64,000 nt of DNA from Ruminococcus sp. (GTDB taxonomy: Bacteria > Bacillota > Clostridia > Oscillospirales > Acutalibacteraceae): assembly GCA_017410265.1 (NCBI GenBank), contig JAFQRC010000001.1, positions 186,001 to 250,000 on the forward strand, given 5' to 3'. Positions 8,804 to 17,102 of this stretch are shown here, one piece after another; the first letter of the stretch is position 1; every line of letters starts with the position of its first letter. The position numbers and the translations under genes were made by a program. The notes under the pieces are model-generated. The model was not told the origin of the DNA and made no database searches. It was given only the letters and a program-made list of their open reading frames with translations.

Positions 8804-8824
8804 TTTCAATATCGTCATTTATAG

Positions 8825-8858
8825 GGAGAATCTTAATAAAGGTTCTCCTTTTCTTTTT
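8825..8858 (+). terminator. Intrinsic terminator
   Basis: GGAGAATCTT pairs with AAGGTTCTCC (one G.U pair), loop AATA, then TTTTCTTTTT. Confidence 0.85.
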
Positions 8859-8874
8859 GCGTCTTTATTATGAG

Positions 8875-8903
8875 TTGAAATTTTCTGTGTTTTGGAATAT
8901 AAT
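8875..8903 (+). promoter_or_regulatory. Sigma-A-type promoter for the racemase operon
   Basis: TTGAAA (8875-8880), 17-nt spacer, TATAAT (8898-8903). The predicted leader is about 88 nt and contains the whole 13-nt repeat array. Confidence 0.7.
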
Positions 8904-8997: not shown

Positions 8998-10158
8998 ATG
9001 GCTGATTCTCTAGTGCAGATAGATTTGAAAAAGCTTTCAGAAAATGTGAAAGCGATTGTAGAAAAGTACCCACAGTACAAAAACTACATCGGCGTTGTAA
9101 AAGGCGATTGCTACGGTCACGGTATGAAAGCTGTGAAGGCACTTAACAAAGGCGGAATAAACTACTTTGCTGTTTCGTCCCTTGAAGAAGCGAAAGCTTT
9201 TCGAGAAGTCCTTTCTGATACACCTGTGCTTTATTTAGAGCCTGTGGAGTCTGACAGGCTAAATGAAGCCCAGAACCTGAAACTCACGCTCGCAATTTCT
9301 GATATGGAGCATTTGAAAACCGTGCTTTCGTATAAAACTGAGTATTCTTTTAATCTCCATTTGCAGATTGATGCAGGCTTTAATCGTCTTGGCTTTAAGG
9401 ATAAGCACGAGATAAAACAAGCTGTCGATATGATAAAATCTTCACAGCATACGCTCGAGGGTATATATCAGCATTTTGCGACAGCGGGGATTTTCGACCC
9501 GCATTATGATAACCAGATAAATCGTTTCAAAGAGCTCACCTCGCTGATTGATTTAAGTGAGATTCCTATGGTGCATTTAGGAAGCGGAGTGTCGCTTTTA
9601 GCTCACGAAAAAATCGATATAGCAAATACTACCCGAATGGGGCTTTTGATGTACGGCTACAACATCGGCCCTCAGTCTTATGGTGGCGGTATCAAGAATA
9701 AAATAAGAGAGCTTCGCGACCGCTACTATCAGAAAAAGTGGGGACTTTCAAAAACGATAAAAGATGTAAAGATCGAGCTTTCTCCTGCTATGAGCTACAA
9801 GTGCAGAATACTGCATTTGAAGAAAGTCAAAGCGGGCGAGTTTGTTGGATATAACGCTTCGTATAAGGCGGAAAGCGACATGATTCTCGCTATACTTCCT
9901 GTCGGCTATAATAACGGCATAGGACACAAAAACTACGGCAGAGTGGTAGAGATAAACGAAAAGCTCTATCCTGTAGTCGGCGAAATCGGAATGAATATGT
10001 GCGCCGTCAAGGTGGATAACAGTGTTAAAATAACCGACGAAGTCACCTTGCTCGGAGATAAAATAACGCTTGGAATGTTCAGCCGAAGTGCGGATTTAGG
10101 ACTGGCTGAAGCTTTAGTTTCAATCGGAAAAAATAACGAGAGAATTTATGTGGAATAA
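8998..10158 (+). CDS. alr: Alanine racemase-type PLP enzyme
   Basis: The fold-III PLP racemase family interconverts L- and D-amino acids, usually alanine. The 386 residues carry the PLP-lysine motif VVKGDCYGHG (near residue 34), the DAGFNRLGF segment, MGLLMYGYN and the second catalytic Tyr region VGYNASYKAE near 280. The C-terminal beta domain has GEIGMNMCAV where classical Alr has GRVxMDM. Several motifs are looser than in canonical Alr (KGDCYGHG for KANAYGHG), so the substrate could be another amino acid such as serine. It heads a run with an ATP-grasp gene 21 nt downstream, suggesting that its D-amino acid product is consumed there. Confidence 0.82.
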   Translation: MADSLVQIDLKKLSENVKAIVEKYPQYKNYIGVVKGDCYGHGMKAVKALNKGGINYFAVSSLEEAKAFREVLSDTPVLYLEPVESDRLNEAQNLKLTLAISDMEHLKTVLSYKTEYSFNLHLQIDAGFNRLGFKDKHEIKQAVDMIKSSQHTLEGIYQHFATAGIFDPHYDNQINRFKELTSLIDLSEIPMVHLGSGVSLLAHEKIDIANTTRMGLLMYGYNIGPQSYGGGIKNKIRELRDRYYQKKWGLSKTIKDVKIELSPAMSYKCRILHLKKVKAGEFVGYNASYKAESDMILAILPVGYNNGIGHKNYGRVVEINEKLYPVVGEIGMNMCAVKVDNSVKITDEVTLLGDKITLGMFSRSADLGLAEALVSIGKNNERIYVE

Positions 10159-10179
10159 TACTTCTGGGAGGTATGTGTT

Positions 10180-11208
10180 ATGGCAATGTCAGTAGGAAAA
10201 TGGCTACTCAATAAATTTAAAGATATCAACCGCGACAGAATGGACAAGCACATCGAGATTATCAGCAAAAACTCGGGTAAGAGTAAGTTTTATATCAAGT
10301 GCAGTATGATGTGGAATTTTCTTACTCAGGGCACAGGCTACACTGACTATTTTCGCGGTAACTTTATTGAGCTTAGCAAAGAAGAAAAAAAGACCTTTGC
10401 AACCGCAAAGCGTTTTTACAGACTCATTGAATATCTAAACGACGAGCAGTACAGCATAATACTCGGCGATAAGCTCATTTTCAACGAGATTTTCAAAGAG
10501 TACTTAAAGCGTGATTTTATCAATCTGCGAAAAAGCTCAGTAGAAGATTTCAAGAATTTCCTGAGCGATAAAACCACCGTTTTTGCTAAGGAAACAAACG
10601 GCGAATGCGGTCACGGTATTAGTAAAATTACTGTTTCTGAAATTGAAGATGTGAAGGCTTTGTATAACAAGCTTGTTGAGAATAATCAGCTTTTGGTCGA
10701 GGATGCTATCATTCAGCACGATGACCTCAATCAGATTAACCCGAATGTCGTGAATTCGTTCAGAATAGTCACTGTCTACAAAGACGGCAAAGCTCATGTT
10801 GTCAGCAACGCGCTGAGAATCAATCAGGACGACAGCGATGTTATCGGTTGCACAAACGACCTCTATTTCAGCCTTGGTGAAGACGGAAAAATCGACAGTA
10901 ATGTAATCGATGACTATGCAGTTGTTTATGATACCCACCCGCTGACAGGGAAGAAATTCTCTGATGTTTGTATCAGCGGGGTAAAAGATGCTTTTGAAAT
11001 GGTAAAAGAAGCTCACTTAAGACTTCCTCAGGTCAGATACATCGGCTGGGATGTAGCGTTTTCTGAAAACGGCCCTGTTATGGTCGAGGGCAACGAGTAT
11101 CCGGGTTACGGAATACTGCAGTTTTATAAACTGAAAAACAAGCGCACAGGTCACCTAAAAGAAGTCGAGAATGTGCTCGGTGATGAATTCAAAAATATCA
11201 GACTTTAA
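10180..11208 (+). CDS. ATP-grasp domain protein, sugar-transfer-associated type
   Basis: The 342-residue protein shows an ATP-grasp fold: an ATP-lysine strand TTVFAKETNGECGHGI (about residues 128-145), LLVEDAIIQHDDLNQINP, NSFRIVTVYKDGKAH, and the metal-binding end RYIGWDVAFSENGPVMVEGN near 290, where Glu and Asn would hold Mg2+. Such enzymes join a carboxylate to an amine or thiol through an acyl phosphate. The layout resembles the family annotated as sugar-transfer-associated ATP-grasp, whose reactions are mostly unknown. Gene order right behind a racemase suggests ligation of a D-amino acid, but that is inference. The start ATG at 10180 follows GGGAGG. Confidence 0.75.
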   Translation: MAMSVGKWLLNKFKDINRDRMDKHIEIISKNSGKSKFYIKCSMMWNFLTQGTGYTDYFRGNFIELSKEEKKTFATAKRFYRLIEYLNDEQYSIILGDKLIFNEIFKEYLKRDFINLRKSSVEDFKNFLSDKTTVFAKETNGECGHGISKITVSEIEDVKALYNKLVENNQLLVEDAIIQHDDLNQINPNVVNSFRIVTVYKDGKAHVVSNALRINQDDSDVIGCTNDLYFSLGEDGKIDSNVIDDYAVVYDTHPLTGKKFSDVCISGVKDAFEMVKEAHLRLPQVRYIGWDVAFSENGPVMVEGNEYPGYGILQFYKLKNKRTGHLKEVENVLGDEFKNIRL

Positions 11209-11218
11209 AGGTGATTTT

Positions 11219-11536
11219 GTGGAAAATACATTTGATAAAATCTACGATATTGTCAGCCAGATACCAAAAGGCAGGGTTGCGACCTACGGCTTAGTTGCAA
11301 AGCTCGCGGGTAATAAAAGATGGGCGAGAGTAGTCGGCTATGCACTGCATGTAAATCCCGACCAGAGCAAAATACCTTGCCACAGGGTAGTAAACCGCGA
11401 AGGAAAAGTGTCAAAAGCTTTTGTTTTCGGCGGAGAAAACGAGCAGATAAAACTGCTTTTGGACGAGGGCGTAGAGGTTGTTGACGGCAAAGTTGATTTG
11501 GAAAAATATTTGTGGAATGTAGGGGTTATATTATGA
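11219..11536 (+). CDS. Ogt/MGMT-like DNA-binding methyltransferase domain protein
   Basis: The 105-residue protein is only the C-terminal domain of O6-alkylguanine-DNA alkyltransferase. It keeps the acceptor motif IPCHRVVNREG with the cysteine, and RVATYGLVAKLAG of the DNA-binding winged helix. Alkyltransferase-like proteins have Trp in place of this Cys; here Cys is present, so suicidal alkyl transfer is possible even without the N-terminal domain. I start it at GTG 11219, preceded by AAAGGTGA; an upstream in-frame start at 11171 would lie inside the ATP-grasp gene. Its stop overlaps the next start (ATGA). Confidence 0.82.
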   Translation: MENTFDKIYDIVSQIPKGRVATYGLVAKLAGNKRWARVVGYALHVNPDQSKIPCHRVVNREGKVSKAFVFGGENEQIKLLLDEGVEVVDGKVDLEKYLWNVGVIL

Positions 11537-12288
11537 GAGCGTTAATTACAGGAGCATCGTCAGGGATAGGCAGAGATATGGCAAGGTACCTTGCGTCACT
11601 TGGTTGGGATTTAGTTGTTGTAGCCAGAAGAACAGAAAGACTTATTTCTTTAAAAGAAGAATTAAAAGATACTGATGTTATGTGCATCACAGCTGACCTT
11701 TCAAAAAAAGAAGACTGCTACCGCGTTTACGAGGAAGCAAAGGGTGTAGAAATTGATATGCTTATTAACAACGCGGGCTTTGGCTTAGCGGGTGAGTTTG
11801 TCGACACTGACCTTGACACAGAGCTTAAGATGATTGACACAAACATCACAGCTCTGCATATCCTGACTAAGCTTTTCTTGAATGATTTTGTAAAACGTGA
11901 CAGCGGAATTATTTTAAATGTTGCGTCGTCTGCATCGTTTATGGCAGGCCCGCTGTTAAACACATATTACGCTACGAAAAACTATGTCTACAGACTTTCA
12001 CAGGCGATTTATCAGGAACTAAAAGAGAAGAAAAGTAAGGTGAAAGTTTCTATACTTTGTCCGGGTCCGATACAGACAGAGTTTTTAGATGTTGCTGATG
12101 TCGGCTTTGTGATAAAGGGACTCAAAAGCGAAGATGTCGCAAAGCTCGCTGTCGATAAAGCACTCAAAGGTAAGTTGATTATCATACCAGGCTTTATGAT
12201 GAAAGCAGGAAAGTTTTTACTCAGACTCACTCCCGAAAAGCTGATGCTGTGGGTGTCCTACAGAATCCAGCACAAAAAGAAAAAATGA
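11533..12288 (+). CDS. Short-chain dehydrogenase/reductase
   Basis: A classical SDR of 251 residues. The NAD(P)-binding loop TGASSGIG is at residues 6-13, the NNAG motif near 83, the catalytic Ser in NVASSASF and the Tyr/Lys pair in YYATKNYVYR. An Arg pair after the second strand (VARRTERL) points to NADPH preference. The basic C-terminal end (YRIQHKKKK) is common in the DltE/YdfG-like clostridial group. The substrate is unknown. The start ATG lies inside the preceding gene's stop, so it belongs to the same transcript as the racemase and ATP-grasp genes. Confidence 0.88.
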   Translation: MRALITGASSGIGRDMARYLASLGWDLVVVARRTERLISLKEELKDTDVMCITADLSKKEDCYRVYEEAKGVEIDMLINNAGFGLAGEFVDTDLDTELKMIDTNITALHILTKLFLNDFVKRDSGIILNVASSASFMAGPLLNTYYATKNYVYRLSQAIYQELKEKKSKVKVSILCPGPIQTEFLDVADVGFVIKGLKSEDVAKLAVDKALKGKLIIIPGFMMKAGKFLLRLTPEKLMLWVSYRIQHKKKK

Positions 12289-12300
12289 TGATATGAAAAA

Positions 12301-12332
12301 ACTCCCCGAAGAAAATTTCGGGGAGTAATTTT
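12301..12332. terminator. Bidirectional terminator between the SDR gene and mreB
   Basis: ACTCCCCGAA and TTCGGGGAGT form a perfect 10-bp stem with a GAAAAT loop, flanked by an A-run on the left and AATTTTA on the right. Confidence 0.85.
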
Positions 12333-14079: not shown

Positions 14080-16296
14080 CTAATCCTTGCTTCTTGTTAG
14101 AAACTCCTTTAGTCCTGAAAAGCGCAGAATACGCTTGTTGTTGTTGACCATTTTTATTATTGCACTCTGGTCGCCGACTAAGATGAGCATTTTCTTTGCT
14201 CTGGTTACGGCGGTGTAAAGCAGATTACGATACATCAGCTGAGGCGCAAAATGGTGCACCGGCATAACGACAGCCTCAAACTCGTTGCCCTGACTTTTGT
14301 GAACTGTGCAGGCATAAGAGAGCTCTAAATCAGCAATAGAGTCTTCGTCGTAGAGAGCCACCTTGTCGTCAAAGCGGACTTTTATAAGCTTTGATGACGG
14401 GTTAACTTCCTCTAAAATTCCGATATCTCCGTTGAAAATACCCTCGCCAAACTCTCCGTTTTCCTTCACCCAGTTTATGTTATAGTTGTTTTTATTCTGC
14501 ATAACCTTGTCGCCCTCACGCAAGCAAAAGTAGTTGACACTTATCTCGCGCTTTGATGGGTCTTTAGGGTTAATTATACTCTGAATACGGTTGTTGAGCT
14601 CGTATGTGCCGAGTATTCCTTTTCTGGTCGGGGAGAGAATCTGGATATCACTCATACAAGAGTAGCCGTAGGTGTTTTTCAGCCTTCTTGTGCAAAGGTC
14701 GGCTATGGTGAAAGCGATGTCTTCTGTGTTTGATTTCTGCATAAAGAAGAAGTCGCTGTTTGTTTCATTCAGGGTAGGCGTTTCGCCGTTTACTATCTTG
14801 TGGGCATTTGTGACTATCAGACTGCTCAGTGACTGGCGGAAAATTTCCTTGAGCTTTACTACGGGGACTGTGTCGCTTGCGATAAGATCAGAAAGCACAT
14901 TACCCGCACCGACCGACGGCAACTGGTCGCAGTCGCCGACTAAAATCAGTCTGCACGACAGAGGAAGAGCACGCATAAGTGACTCGAACAGCACACAGTC
15001 AACCATCGAAACCTCGTCTACGATAATAGCGTCGCAGTTGAGCATATTGTGCTCATTTTTCTTAAATTGAGGTCTGTCTTCAATGTCAAAGCTCACTTCC
15101 AGCAGACGATGAATGGTTTTCGCCTCTTCATTTGTCAGCGCACTCATTCGCTGAGCGGCACGACCGGTCGGCGCGCAAAGGCACACCTTTTGTCCGTTTT
15201 CTTTGAGTAAGCGTATAATAGCGTTCAAAGTGGTGGTTTTACCTGTGCCCGGACCGCCTGTCAAAATAAGCATACCTTTCGTTAAGGCTTCTTTGATAGC
15301 TTTTTTCTGAAGCTCTGCGTATTTTATGTTATCAGTTTTCTCGATGTACTCGATTTTTTCGTCAACACCGTCTATTCTCATAGCGGGATATCTCATCAGC
15401 ATCTGAATTCTCGCGCTGATGTAGGTTTCGCTCTGGTGCATAGAGGAAGCGAAGATAAATTCTTTTTCAGAAATATATTCGCTGATCAAAGAGCCCTCTT
15501 CGAGCATTTCTTTCAGAGCGGATTCAACACTGAGTGGCTCGATAGACAGCATTTTCGCTGTGACTTCAATGAGCTTGTCGTATGGCAGACAGGTGTGGCC
15601 GTTTAGTTTGTTGTGATTTAAGACATGGCTCAGTGCCGCGCGGACACGGAAACGGTCGTCTAAAGAGCGGTCCTGATGTCTTGCTATCGCGTCTGCTGTA
15701 TCAAAAGAGATGTTGAGCCTTTCGTCACACAAAACAAAAGGGTTGTCCTCGATACACCTGATAGCCAGATTTCCAAAGCATTTCCAGATTGCTACCGCGG
15801 CTTTTGCGTTGATATTAAAGCCTGACAGGTACACCATCAGTTCTCTTATTCCGACAACCTGCTTGAGCTGATTGCTGATATCAAGTGCTTTGTCAGTTGA
15901 AATACCTTTGATTTTAGCTACTCTGACAGGGTCGTTTTCAAGCACTGACAGAGTATCAGCACCGAATTCTTTGACAAGTCTCTGTGCTGTGGCAGGACCG
16001 ACACCTTTTATAGCACCGCTACTAAGGTACTTGAGTATTCCGTCTAAGTTTTCGGGCATAGAACGCTCACAGGCAGTAGCTACAAACTGCTGTCCGTACG
16101 ATGGGTGGTTTTTATATGTACCGTAAAGCTTTACCTGCTCGCCGACGCTTATCAGTGGCATTGTGCCGACAGCGGTTATCATTTCGTTTTCGCCTATAAG
16201 CTCAATAACGGTGTAGCCGTTTTCTTCGTTTCTGAAAACTATCGACTCAACCTGACCGCTGAGTTCATAAAGCTCATTGTTTTCGTTCATGCTCAT
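14080..16296 (-). CDS. recD2: RecD2-type ATP-dependent DNA helicase
   Basis: RecD2 is a 5'-3' superfamily 1B helicase acting in repair outside RecBCD. The 738-residue length fits the family. Visible parts are an N-terminal OB-like region (residues 10-75), a helix-hairpin-helix SSGAIKGVGPATAQRLV near 95, Walker A LTGGPGTGKTTTLNA near 345, Walker B IIVDEVSMVD, GDCDQLPSVGAGNVL, and the C-terminal TVHKSQGNEFEAVV motif V/VI with AVTRAKKML. The start is preceded by AGGAAT. It forms a two-gene unit with comF. Confidence 0.95.
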   Translation of the reverse strand: MSMNENNELYELSGQVESIVFRNEENGYTVIELIGENEMITAVGTMPLISVGEQVKLYGTYKNHPSYGQQFVATACERSMPENLDGILKYLSSGAIKGVGPATAQRLVKEFGADTLSVLENDPVRVAKIKGISTDKALDISNQLKQVVGIRELMVYLSGFNINAKAAVAIWKCFGNLAIRCIEDNPFVLCDERLNISFDTADAIARHQDRSLDDRFRVRAALSHVLNHNKLNGHTCLPYDKLIEVTAKMLSIEPLSVESALKEMLEEGSLISEYISEKEFIFASSMHQSETYISARIQMLMRYPAMRIDGVDEKIEYIEKTDNIKYAELQKKAIKEALTKGMLILTGGPGTGKTTTLNAIIRLLKENGQKVCLCAPTGRAAQRMSALTNEEAKTIHRLLEVSFDIEDRPQFKKNEHNMLNCDAIIVDEVSMVDCVLFESLMRALPLSCRLILVGDCDQLPSVGAGNVLSDLIASDTVPVVKLKEIFRQSLSSLIVTNAHKIVNGETPTLNETNSDFFFMQKSNTEDIAFTIADLCTRRLKNTYGYSCMSDIQILSPTRKGILGTYELNNRIQSIINPKDPSKREISVNYFCLREGDKVMQNKNNYNINWVKENGEFGEGIFNGDIGILEEVNPSSKLIKVRFDDKVALYDEDSIADLELSYACTVHKSQGNEFEAVVMPVHHFAPQLMYRNLLYTAVTRAKKMLILVGDQSAIIKMVNNNKRILRFSGLKEFLTRSKD

Positions 16297-16403: not shown

Positions 16404-17102
16404 ATGGAATTTATTGCAAACGAAGGTAAAAATGTTGAAATAGAGGTAAACGGTGTGACCTATATGCGCCACGCTATCAAAACTCACTTTGTAAAGCAGG
16501 GCGAAAGCTACATCGATATTTTTGAAAAATATGTTTCTCCGCTTTATGAAGAGGGGGATATCGTGTCTTCTGCTGAGAAGATTATCGCTCTTTGCCAGAA
16601 CAGGGTAGTTCGCAGAGATGAGCTCAAAATCGGCTTTTGGGCAAAGCTTTTGTCGAAATTTGCTTCCCACCCTGACACAGGTGTCGGCGTTGGTGAAACT
16701 ATCAAAATGCAGTACGCTATCTCAAAATGCGGTCTTTTAAAGGTGCTCTGGGCGTCATTTGCGGGCGGTGTGTGCAAGGTTTTCGGCAAAAAAGGCGTTT
16801 TCTACGAAATCGTTGGCAGTGATGTAGCAGGACTCGACGGTTTTTATGACCATGTGTGGAGCGAGTACCGTGACATCGGTATCGAAAATCCAGAGAATCC
16901 GTCAGGCGTTTGCGACGAGATTAAGGAAAAGCTCGGCATCTCCTGTATGATAGTTGACGCAAATGATTTAGGTCAGGAGATTTTAGGCTATTCTTCGGAT
17001 ATCACACTTACCGAGGAAGAGCTCCTAGGTCTTATCAAGGACAACCCGACAGGACAGGGTCAGCAGACAACTCCGCTGATTCTTATCAGAAAAAAGCAGT
17101 AA
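16404..17102 (+). CDS. CofE-like coenzyme F420-0:L-glutamate ligase family protein
   Basis: The 232-residue protein resembles archaeal CofE, which adds glutamates to coenzyme F420-0 with GTP. Similar segments include the N-terminal TPLI-type replacement HAIKTHFVKQGESY, a basic VVRRDELKIGFWAKLLSKF helix, the DVAGLDGFYDHV glycine/aspartate region, and the C-terminal NPTGQGQQTTPLILIRK. No other F420 gene is in the window, and F420 is not expected in Clostridia of this kind, so the acceptor is probably different. The start ATG follows GGGGGAA. It is monocistronic. Confidence 0.6.
   Translation: MEFIANEGKNVEIEVNGVTYMRHAIKTHFVKQGESYIDIFEKYVSPLYEEGDIVSSAEKIIALCQNRVVRRDELKIGFWAKLLSKFASHPDTGVGVGETIKMQYAISKCGLLKVLWASFAGGVCKVFGKKGVFYEIVGSDVAGLDGFYDHVWSEYRDIGIENPENPSGVCDEIKEKLGISCMIVDANDLGQEILGYSSDITLTEEELLGLIKDNPTGQGQQTTPLILIRKKQ

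Follow-up and report, generated by a model that had tools for sequence, protein, structure and literature searches.

The locus described here raises the question of whether an alanine-racemase-type enzyme and an ATP-grasp ligase, encoded 21 nt apart, belong together and, if so, what they might make. It lies in a window of 64,000 nucleotides, the whole stretch of DNA that was analysed, from the genome of a Ruminococcus species. A sequence-only reading had recognised the two genes and their spacing, and both were confirmed by open reading frames and family profiles at the coordinates given here with the other features on which the argument draws.

8823..8850, + strand: terminator-like hairpin separating the racemase gene from the GNAT gene that precedes it
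8875..8903, + strand: sigma-70-like promoter site, TTGAAA-17-TATAAT (11/12 matches)
8998-10158, + strand: gene for an Alr-type PLP racemase, 386 aa (profile, alignment, AlphaFold model)
10180-11208, + strand: gene for an ATPgrasp_ST carboxylate-amine ligase, 342 aa (PF14397, AlphaFold model)
11219..11536, + strand: Ogt-like gene (MGMT DNA-binding domain, from a domain scan), probably a passenger
11533..12288, + strand: short-chain dehydrogenase (SDR) gene (domain scan), probably a passenger
12301..12326, + strand: terminator-like hairpin closing the four-gene run
14080..16296, - strand: recD2-like gene, named by sequence reading; the module adjoins recD2 in most relatives
16404..17102, + strand: CofE-like (F420-0:gamma-glutamyl ligase-like) gene, a weak match to PF01996 (25.3 bits, cut-off 25)

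The earlier suggestion that the genes share one transcript is plausible, in that the hairpins and the promoter-like site enclose the racemase, ligase, Ogt-like and SDR genes; the promoter itself is only suggestive, since a scan returned five promoter-like sites where shuffles gave 7.3 expected by chance, and hence no excess. The Ogt-like and SDR genes look like the passengers they had been supposed to be, a view supported by the occurrence of Ogt-SDR without the pair in many relatives and by another gene intervening in locus L052.

On sequence grounds the racemase and ligase are a real, maintained module. In a sample of 161 genomes of the genus, with the racemase called at E<=1e-50 and the ligase at E<=1e-90, the racemase was found in 41 and the ligase in 40, all 40 falling within the racemase-positive 41, and the remaining racemase genome (G607) carries a shorter ligase copy of 65% identity. 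The objection that the two genes might rarely co-occur thus fails within the genus, where a ligase is present in every racemase genome. Among the 41, the window included, the racemase is followed by the ligase on one strand in 28, the racemase is divergent from a MurT-GatD-ligase run in 12, and in one (G627) the pair is split across contig ends, the ligase of that genome having an in-frame TAG. Conservation of the neighbourhood across Clostridia, which had been proposed as a check, holds for the genus and is not general: among 150 genomes of the family, ligase homologues occur in 50 and the racemase in 5, and none of the other four racemase-bearing genomes pairs it with this ligase, while in a sample of 394 genomes of the order the racemase was detected at E<=1e-25 in 5, the window's genome included. 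A general clostridial operon was rejected as a description of the pair, which the sampled family members from other genera lack, and a phage-borne module was also rejected, a scan of viral contigs having given no relative. A scan of genome contigs recovered 47 loci, most of them from Ruminococcus MAGs of rumen or gut origin; R. bromii ATCC 27255 and 5AMG were the isolates among them. Outside the genus there are seven loci in Bacilli, Firmicutes or Clostridia MAGs with 43-51% racemases, plus one at 28%. A ligase of 55-63% is present in four of these seven (L158, L159, L164 and L165) and adjacent in L164 and L165; L166 and L167 have a ligase of 38-39%, L168 has matches at 20-29% only and L170 has none.

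The racemase matches PF01168 at 152 bits (cut-off 24.1) and PF00842 at 90.6 bits (cut-off 25) in a Pfam scan, and in an NCBIfam scan its score with TIGR00492, the model for alanine racemase, is 222.5 bits, above the cut-off of 168. Comparison with the canonical Alr of the same genome shows that the Lys of V-K-x-x-x-YGHG, the Tyr/His/Arg framework of the N domain and the C-domain tyrosines are kept, and K35, which we take to be the PLP lysine, and Y285, presumably the catalytic tyrosine of the C domain, are invariant in the alignments. The relaxed motifs noticed by the sequence-only reading are borne out by the departures from Alr, namely M-N-M in place of M-D-Q and GYNNG in place of GYADG, to which are added a conserved inserted basic linker (about residues 223-260) and GKNN as a further part of the signature. 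M-N-M is present in 40 of the 41 genus racemases (the sole exception, that of G583, is a copy shortened by a contig end) and GYxNG in all 41, and both are absent from the genome's canonical Alr; in racemases from outside the genus the motifs are no independent evidence, because those loci were retrieved with patterns that included M-N-M / GYxNG-type motifs. The AlphaFold model (pLDDT 90.5, 16 alignment rows) is Alr-like, with Alr and VanT as the nearest folds, and the substrate cannot be read from the modelled fold or from the sequence signature.

Three Ala_racemase_N genes are present in the window's genome (1.97 Mb in 17 contigs): the canonical Alr, which lies about 20 kb upstream of the pair, the pair racemase, and a gene with a 257-aa frame, which we take to be of YggS size. 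The canonical Alr scores 220 bits compared with 154 for the pair racemase, and its presence means that D-Ala has a likely source besides the latter in this genome, so that the possibility, allowed for earlier, of the pair racemase being the sole supply for ordinary peptidoglycan fails here. The racemase might still be a second ordinary alanine racemase and the ligase unrelated to it, a reading that draws on the TIGR00492 score, but with the canonical Alr so close, the co-occurrence with the ligase complete in the genus, and the active-site region deviating from Alr in a shared way, it is quite unlikely.

The ligase matches PF14397 (ATPgrasp_ST) at 139.1 bits against a cut-off of 31.4 in the Pfam scan, and no Ddl/Van family match was obtained in the Pfam or NCBIfam scans, the likeness to Ddl being one of fold only. 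Its nucleotide loop, presumably nucleotide-binding, and its V-E-G-N-x-x-P-G region, presumably that of the metal site, are conserved among relatives. The nearest folds to its AlphaFold model (pLDDT 86, 15 alignment rows) are LysX/ArgX (Z 14.9-14.1), RimK (13.9), Ddl (13.7-12) and BacD (13.0), with biotin carboxylases and pyruvate carboxylase scoring slightly below the carboxylate-amine ligases; these matches to a predicted structure, with peptide-forming ATP-grasp enzymes at the top, support ATP-grasp chemistry in general and no particular substrate. Nothing was found for PF14397 by accession in the open-licence literature. The window's genome has a second ATPgrasp_ST gene (L005:1417-2448, on contig C14), and inspection of its neighbours revealed no racemase. 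An analogous arrangement was seen in another genus of the family (L063:6819-9204), where 16 nt separate an Alr-type racemase gene (32%) from a downstream ATP-grasp-like gene of another type, one that has no Pfam match, gave an empty PDB search and is not alignable to the window ligase.

The presence of VanT among the nearest folds and models of the racemase would suit a pathway, like that of VanT/VanG with D-Ser, in which the product of the pair is a precursor with a resistance-type or spore-specific terminus. This is very improbable, however, given that the VanT model scores 171.2 bits against a cut-off of 460, that the 386 aa include no membrane domain, that the ligase matches no Ddl/Van model and that no VanX/VanY-like neighbour was noticed in the locus maps. 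Model scores, protein length and the missing Ddl match led to the rejection of VanT-type D-Ser resistance as such.

The genes that surround the pair in its relatives are more informative as to its setting. MurT_C and GATase_3 proteins encoded near it match MurT/GatD models and structures, and MurT/GatD adjoins the pair in 14 of the 19 MurT-type pair genomes (in one via contig ends), lying elsewhere in the other 5. The CofE-like gene immediately precedes the racemase in 17 of the 22 CofE-type pair genomes; in the window it follows the pair at a distance of 5.2 kb, and in two Bacilli loci (L184 and L185) it and the ligase gene are divergently oriented. A gene for a MurJ/SpoVB-like flippase is directly upstream of the racemase in two scanned Bacilli loci, and a sortase gene occupies the same position relative to the clade racemase in three MAGs (L166:5590-7191, L167:5218-7191 and L168:5208-7158). 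As far as gene neighbourhoods can indicate, the MurT/GatD, flippase and sortase genes support the cell-wall role proposed earlier. The acceptor could instead be a surface or capsular polysaccharide or a teichoic-like polymer, the D-amino acid being placed on a sugar acid or amino sugar; PF14397 is named as sugar-transfer associated, and the best match of the Bacilli flippase is to Polysacc_synt. Such an acceptor is nevertheless judged unlikely, for MurT/GatD sits between the racemase and ligase genes in 12 genomes and no glycosyltransferase cluster surrounds the pair in the locus maps inspected.

A peptidoglycan role is suggested by MurT in particular, since its known complex amidates the D-Glu of lipid II, and the distribution of MurT in the genus is itself informative. 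MurT_C was found in 96 and the CofE-like gene in 58 of the 161 genus genomes, with no overlap where 34.6 would be expected and with neither gene in 7 (hypergeometric probability 2e-36, a figure that ignores shared ancestry). Exactly one of the two is present in each of the 41 pair genomes, and on the racemase tree the MurT/CofE-like label undergoes four changes, at least three of them forced by well-supported branches of what is a quick tree. In most pair loci, moreover, MurT/GatD and the CofE-like gene occupy the same slot beside the recD2-like gene. It looks, from sequence comparisons, as though the CofE-like gene replaces MurT/GatD as an unrelated enzyme with the same role, and such an either/or choice at one locus constitutes a directly testable replacement in wall amidation. 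The pair is not needed for the step concerned, since most of the 120 pair-free genomes of the genus also have MurT or the CofE-like gene, only 7 of the 161 having neither. Searches of the open-licence literature that combined gamma-glutamyl ligase with MurT led to work on the structure of MurT and unrelated matter, and those that combined it with F420 and lipid II led to work on F420.

The GatD proteins of the genus are themselves unusual. Aligned to four intact GatD proteins as reference, 37 of 41 carry Gly in place of the Cys and Thr, Ile, Leu, Val or Met in place of the His (e.g. L060:8797-9507 and L104:2270-2992) and 4 keep both catalytic residues, the 41 being the usable frames among the loci retrieved (L051-L123) and not all 96 MurT genomes. 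All 14 of the pair-adjacent GatD proteins are without the catalytic Cys and His, and GatD proteins of this kind also occur in genus genomes that have no racemase pair. In Staphylococcus aureus the C94G change in GatD abolished activity in vitro, according to an excerpt of PMC6113224. With both Cys and His replaced, and C94G being inactive, these MurT/GatD complexes should not use glutamine as an ammonia source in the established way. The natural Cys-to-Gly change raises the question of the function of a glutaminase-dead GatD, and no description of MurT/GatD with an absent cysteine was found in the open-licence literature.

It is probable, if only just, that the pair is a cell-wall module in which a D-amino acid is made and then joined to a peptidoglycan precursor, beside a second carboxylate-modifying ligase. 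The basis for a module is the co-occurrence of the two genes, their shared loci, the exchange of MurT/GatD with the CofE-like gene and the conserved active-site frameworks of both enzymes; the substrate, acceptor and bond are what we infer from these sequences. In a first step the Alr-type paralogue would racemize some amino acid instead of alanine or in addition to it, and in a second the ATP-grasp enzyme would activate a carboxylate with ATP and join the D-amino acid through an amide bond to a UDP-MurNAc-peptide or a lipid-linked precursor. The stem peptide would be acted on jointly by the pair and by the second carboxylate-modifying ligase, the latter being MurT plus a GatD without catalytic residues in some species and the CofE-like enzyme in others. 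MurE of the genus has D-N-S-R in all 13 copies read (L190-L202), where D-N-P-R at the residue-3 specificity motif is what we take to mark a DAP-type MurE, so that stem residue 3 is not to be taken for granted. Searches of the open-licence literature on the peptidoglycan or sortase of R. bromii found nothing on its wall chemistry.

The Bacilli MAG G676 (L203-L255) presents the pair in a very different context. This near-complete genome (942,184 bases retrieved) encodes tRNAs for 18 of the 20 amino acids. Genes resembling those for MurA, MraY, MurG, FtsW and PBPs, identified by motif and sequence reading, are present in it, but searches with tblastn, phmmer, a motif and a MurE profile detected no Mur ligase, and no Ddl motif was seen. 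The motif pattern was a loose one, and the MurE profile does detect MurC and MurT. A study of these Bacilli orders describes wall-precursor steps as missing, according to an excerpt of PMC10868615. In a whole-genome search for MurE, G676, G677 and G679 gave no match (0, 1 and 0 candidates, respectively) and G678 matched; G677, a relative, does have Ddl. G676 keeps the trio of racemase, ATP-grasp ligase and CofE-like gene, and either the trio fills the missing wall steps, or the cell scavenges precursors, or something other than peptidoglycan serves as acceptor. The occurrence of the pair in three genomes without a MurE match favours a polysaccharide or teichoic-like acceptor, although the MraY-, MurG- and PBP-like genes still present in G676 argue the other way. 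Since no Alr-type gene besides the pair racemase was found in G676, that enzyme may simply supply D-Ala there, a point in favour of the ordinary alanine racemase discussed above. A rather improbable extension of the peptidoglycan-precursor reading is that racemase, ATP-grasp and CofE-like enzymes would form an alternative route for building or branching the stem peptide of lipid-linked wall precursors, which would add to the Mur ligases in Ruminococcus and replace part of them in Bacilli like G676; the CofE-like enzyme would substitute functionally for MurT/GatD, and neither would use glutamine ammonia, given the glutaminase-dead GatD.

The racemase shares with Alr its domains, PLP Lys, catalytic Tyr and fold, whereas its M-N-M and GYNNG motifs and inserted linker set it apart, as does its coexistence with a canonical Alr. 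The CofE-like gene resembles CofE, the F420-0:L-glutamate ligase, through its weak N-terminal match to PF01996, but it scores 12.5 bits with TIGR01916 against a cut-off of 180.65 and takes the place of MurT/GatD. The pair-adjacent homologues of MurT/GatD, the lipid II isoglutaminyl synthase treated in the excerpt of PMC6113224, match its models and structures, but Cys94 of GatD has become Gly and His189 a residue other than His in the 37 of 41 proteins noted above. To our knowledge, it is chiefly in lactic acid bacteria that a racemase and a ligase have been found to work as a pair in adding a D-amino acid to peptidoglycan. The ligase of the present pair belongs to PF14397, its racemase is of the Alr type, where RacD of Lactococcus lactis is presumably of the Asp/Glu racemase type, and its partners are MurT/GatD-like or CofE-like. 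In L. lactis, RacD and AslA are encoded in one operon, AslA being an ATP-grasp D-Asp ligase, according to an excerpt of PMC4155827, and the likeness to the present pair lies in the linkage of a racemase with an ATP-grasp ligase (adjacent and on the same strand in 28 of 41 genomes here) and in a ligase that, as predicted for the pair, would attach a D-amino acid to a precursor of peptidoglycan. The best reading, by analogy, is that the pair works like lactococcal RacD/AslA and is built from other families; if this is true, it would represent a second such invention, based on other protein families, among ruminococci of the gut and rumen, the cultured starch degrader R. bromii included.
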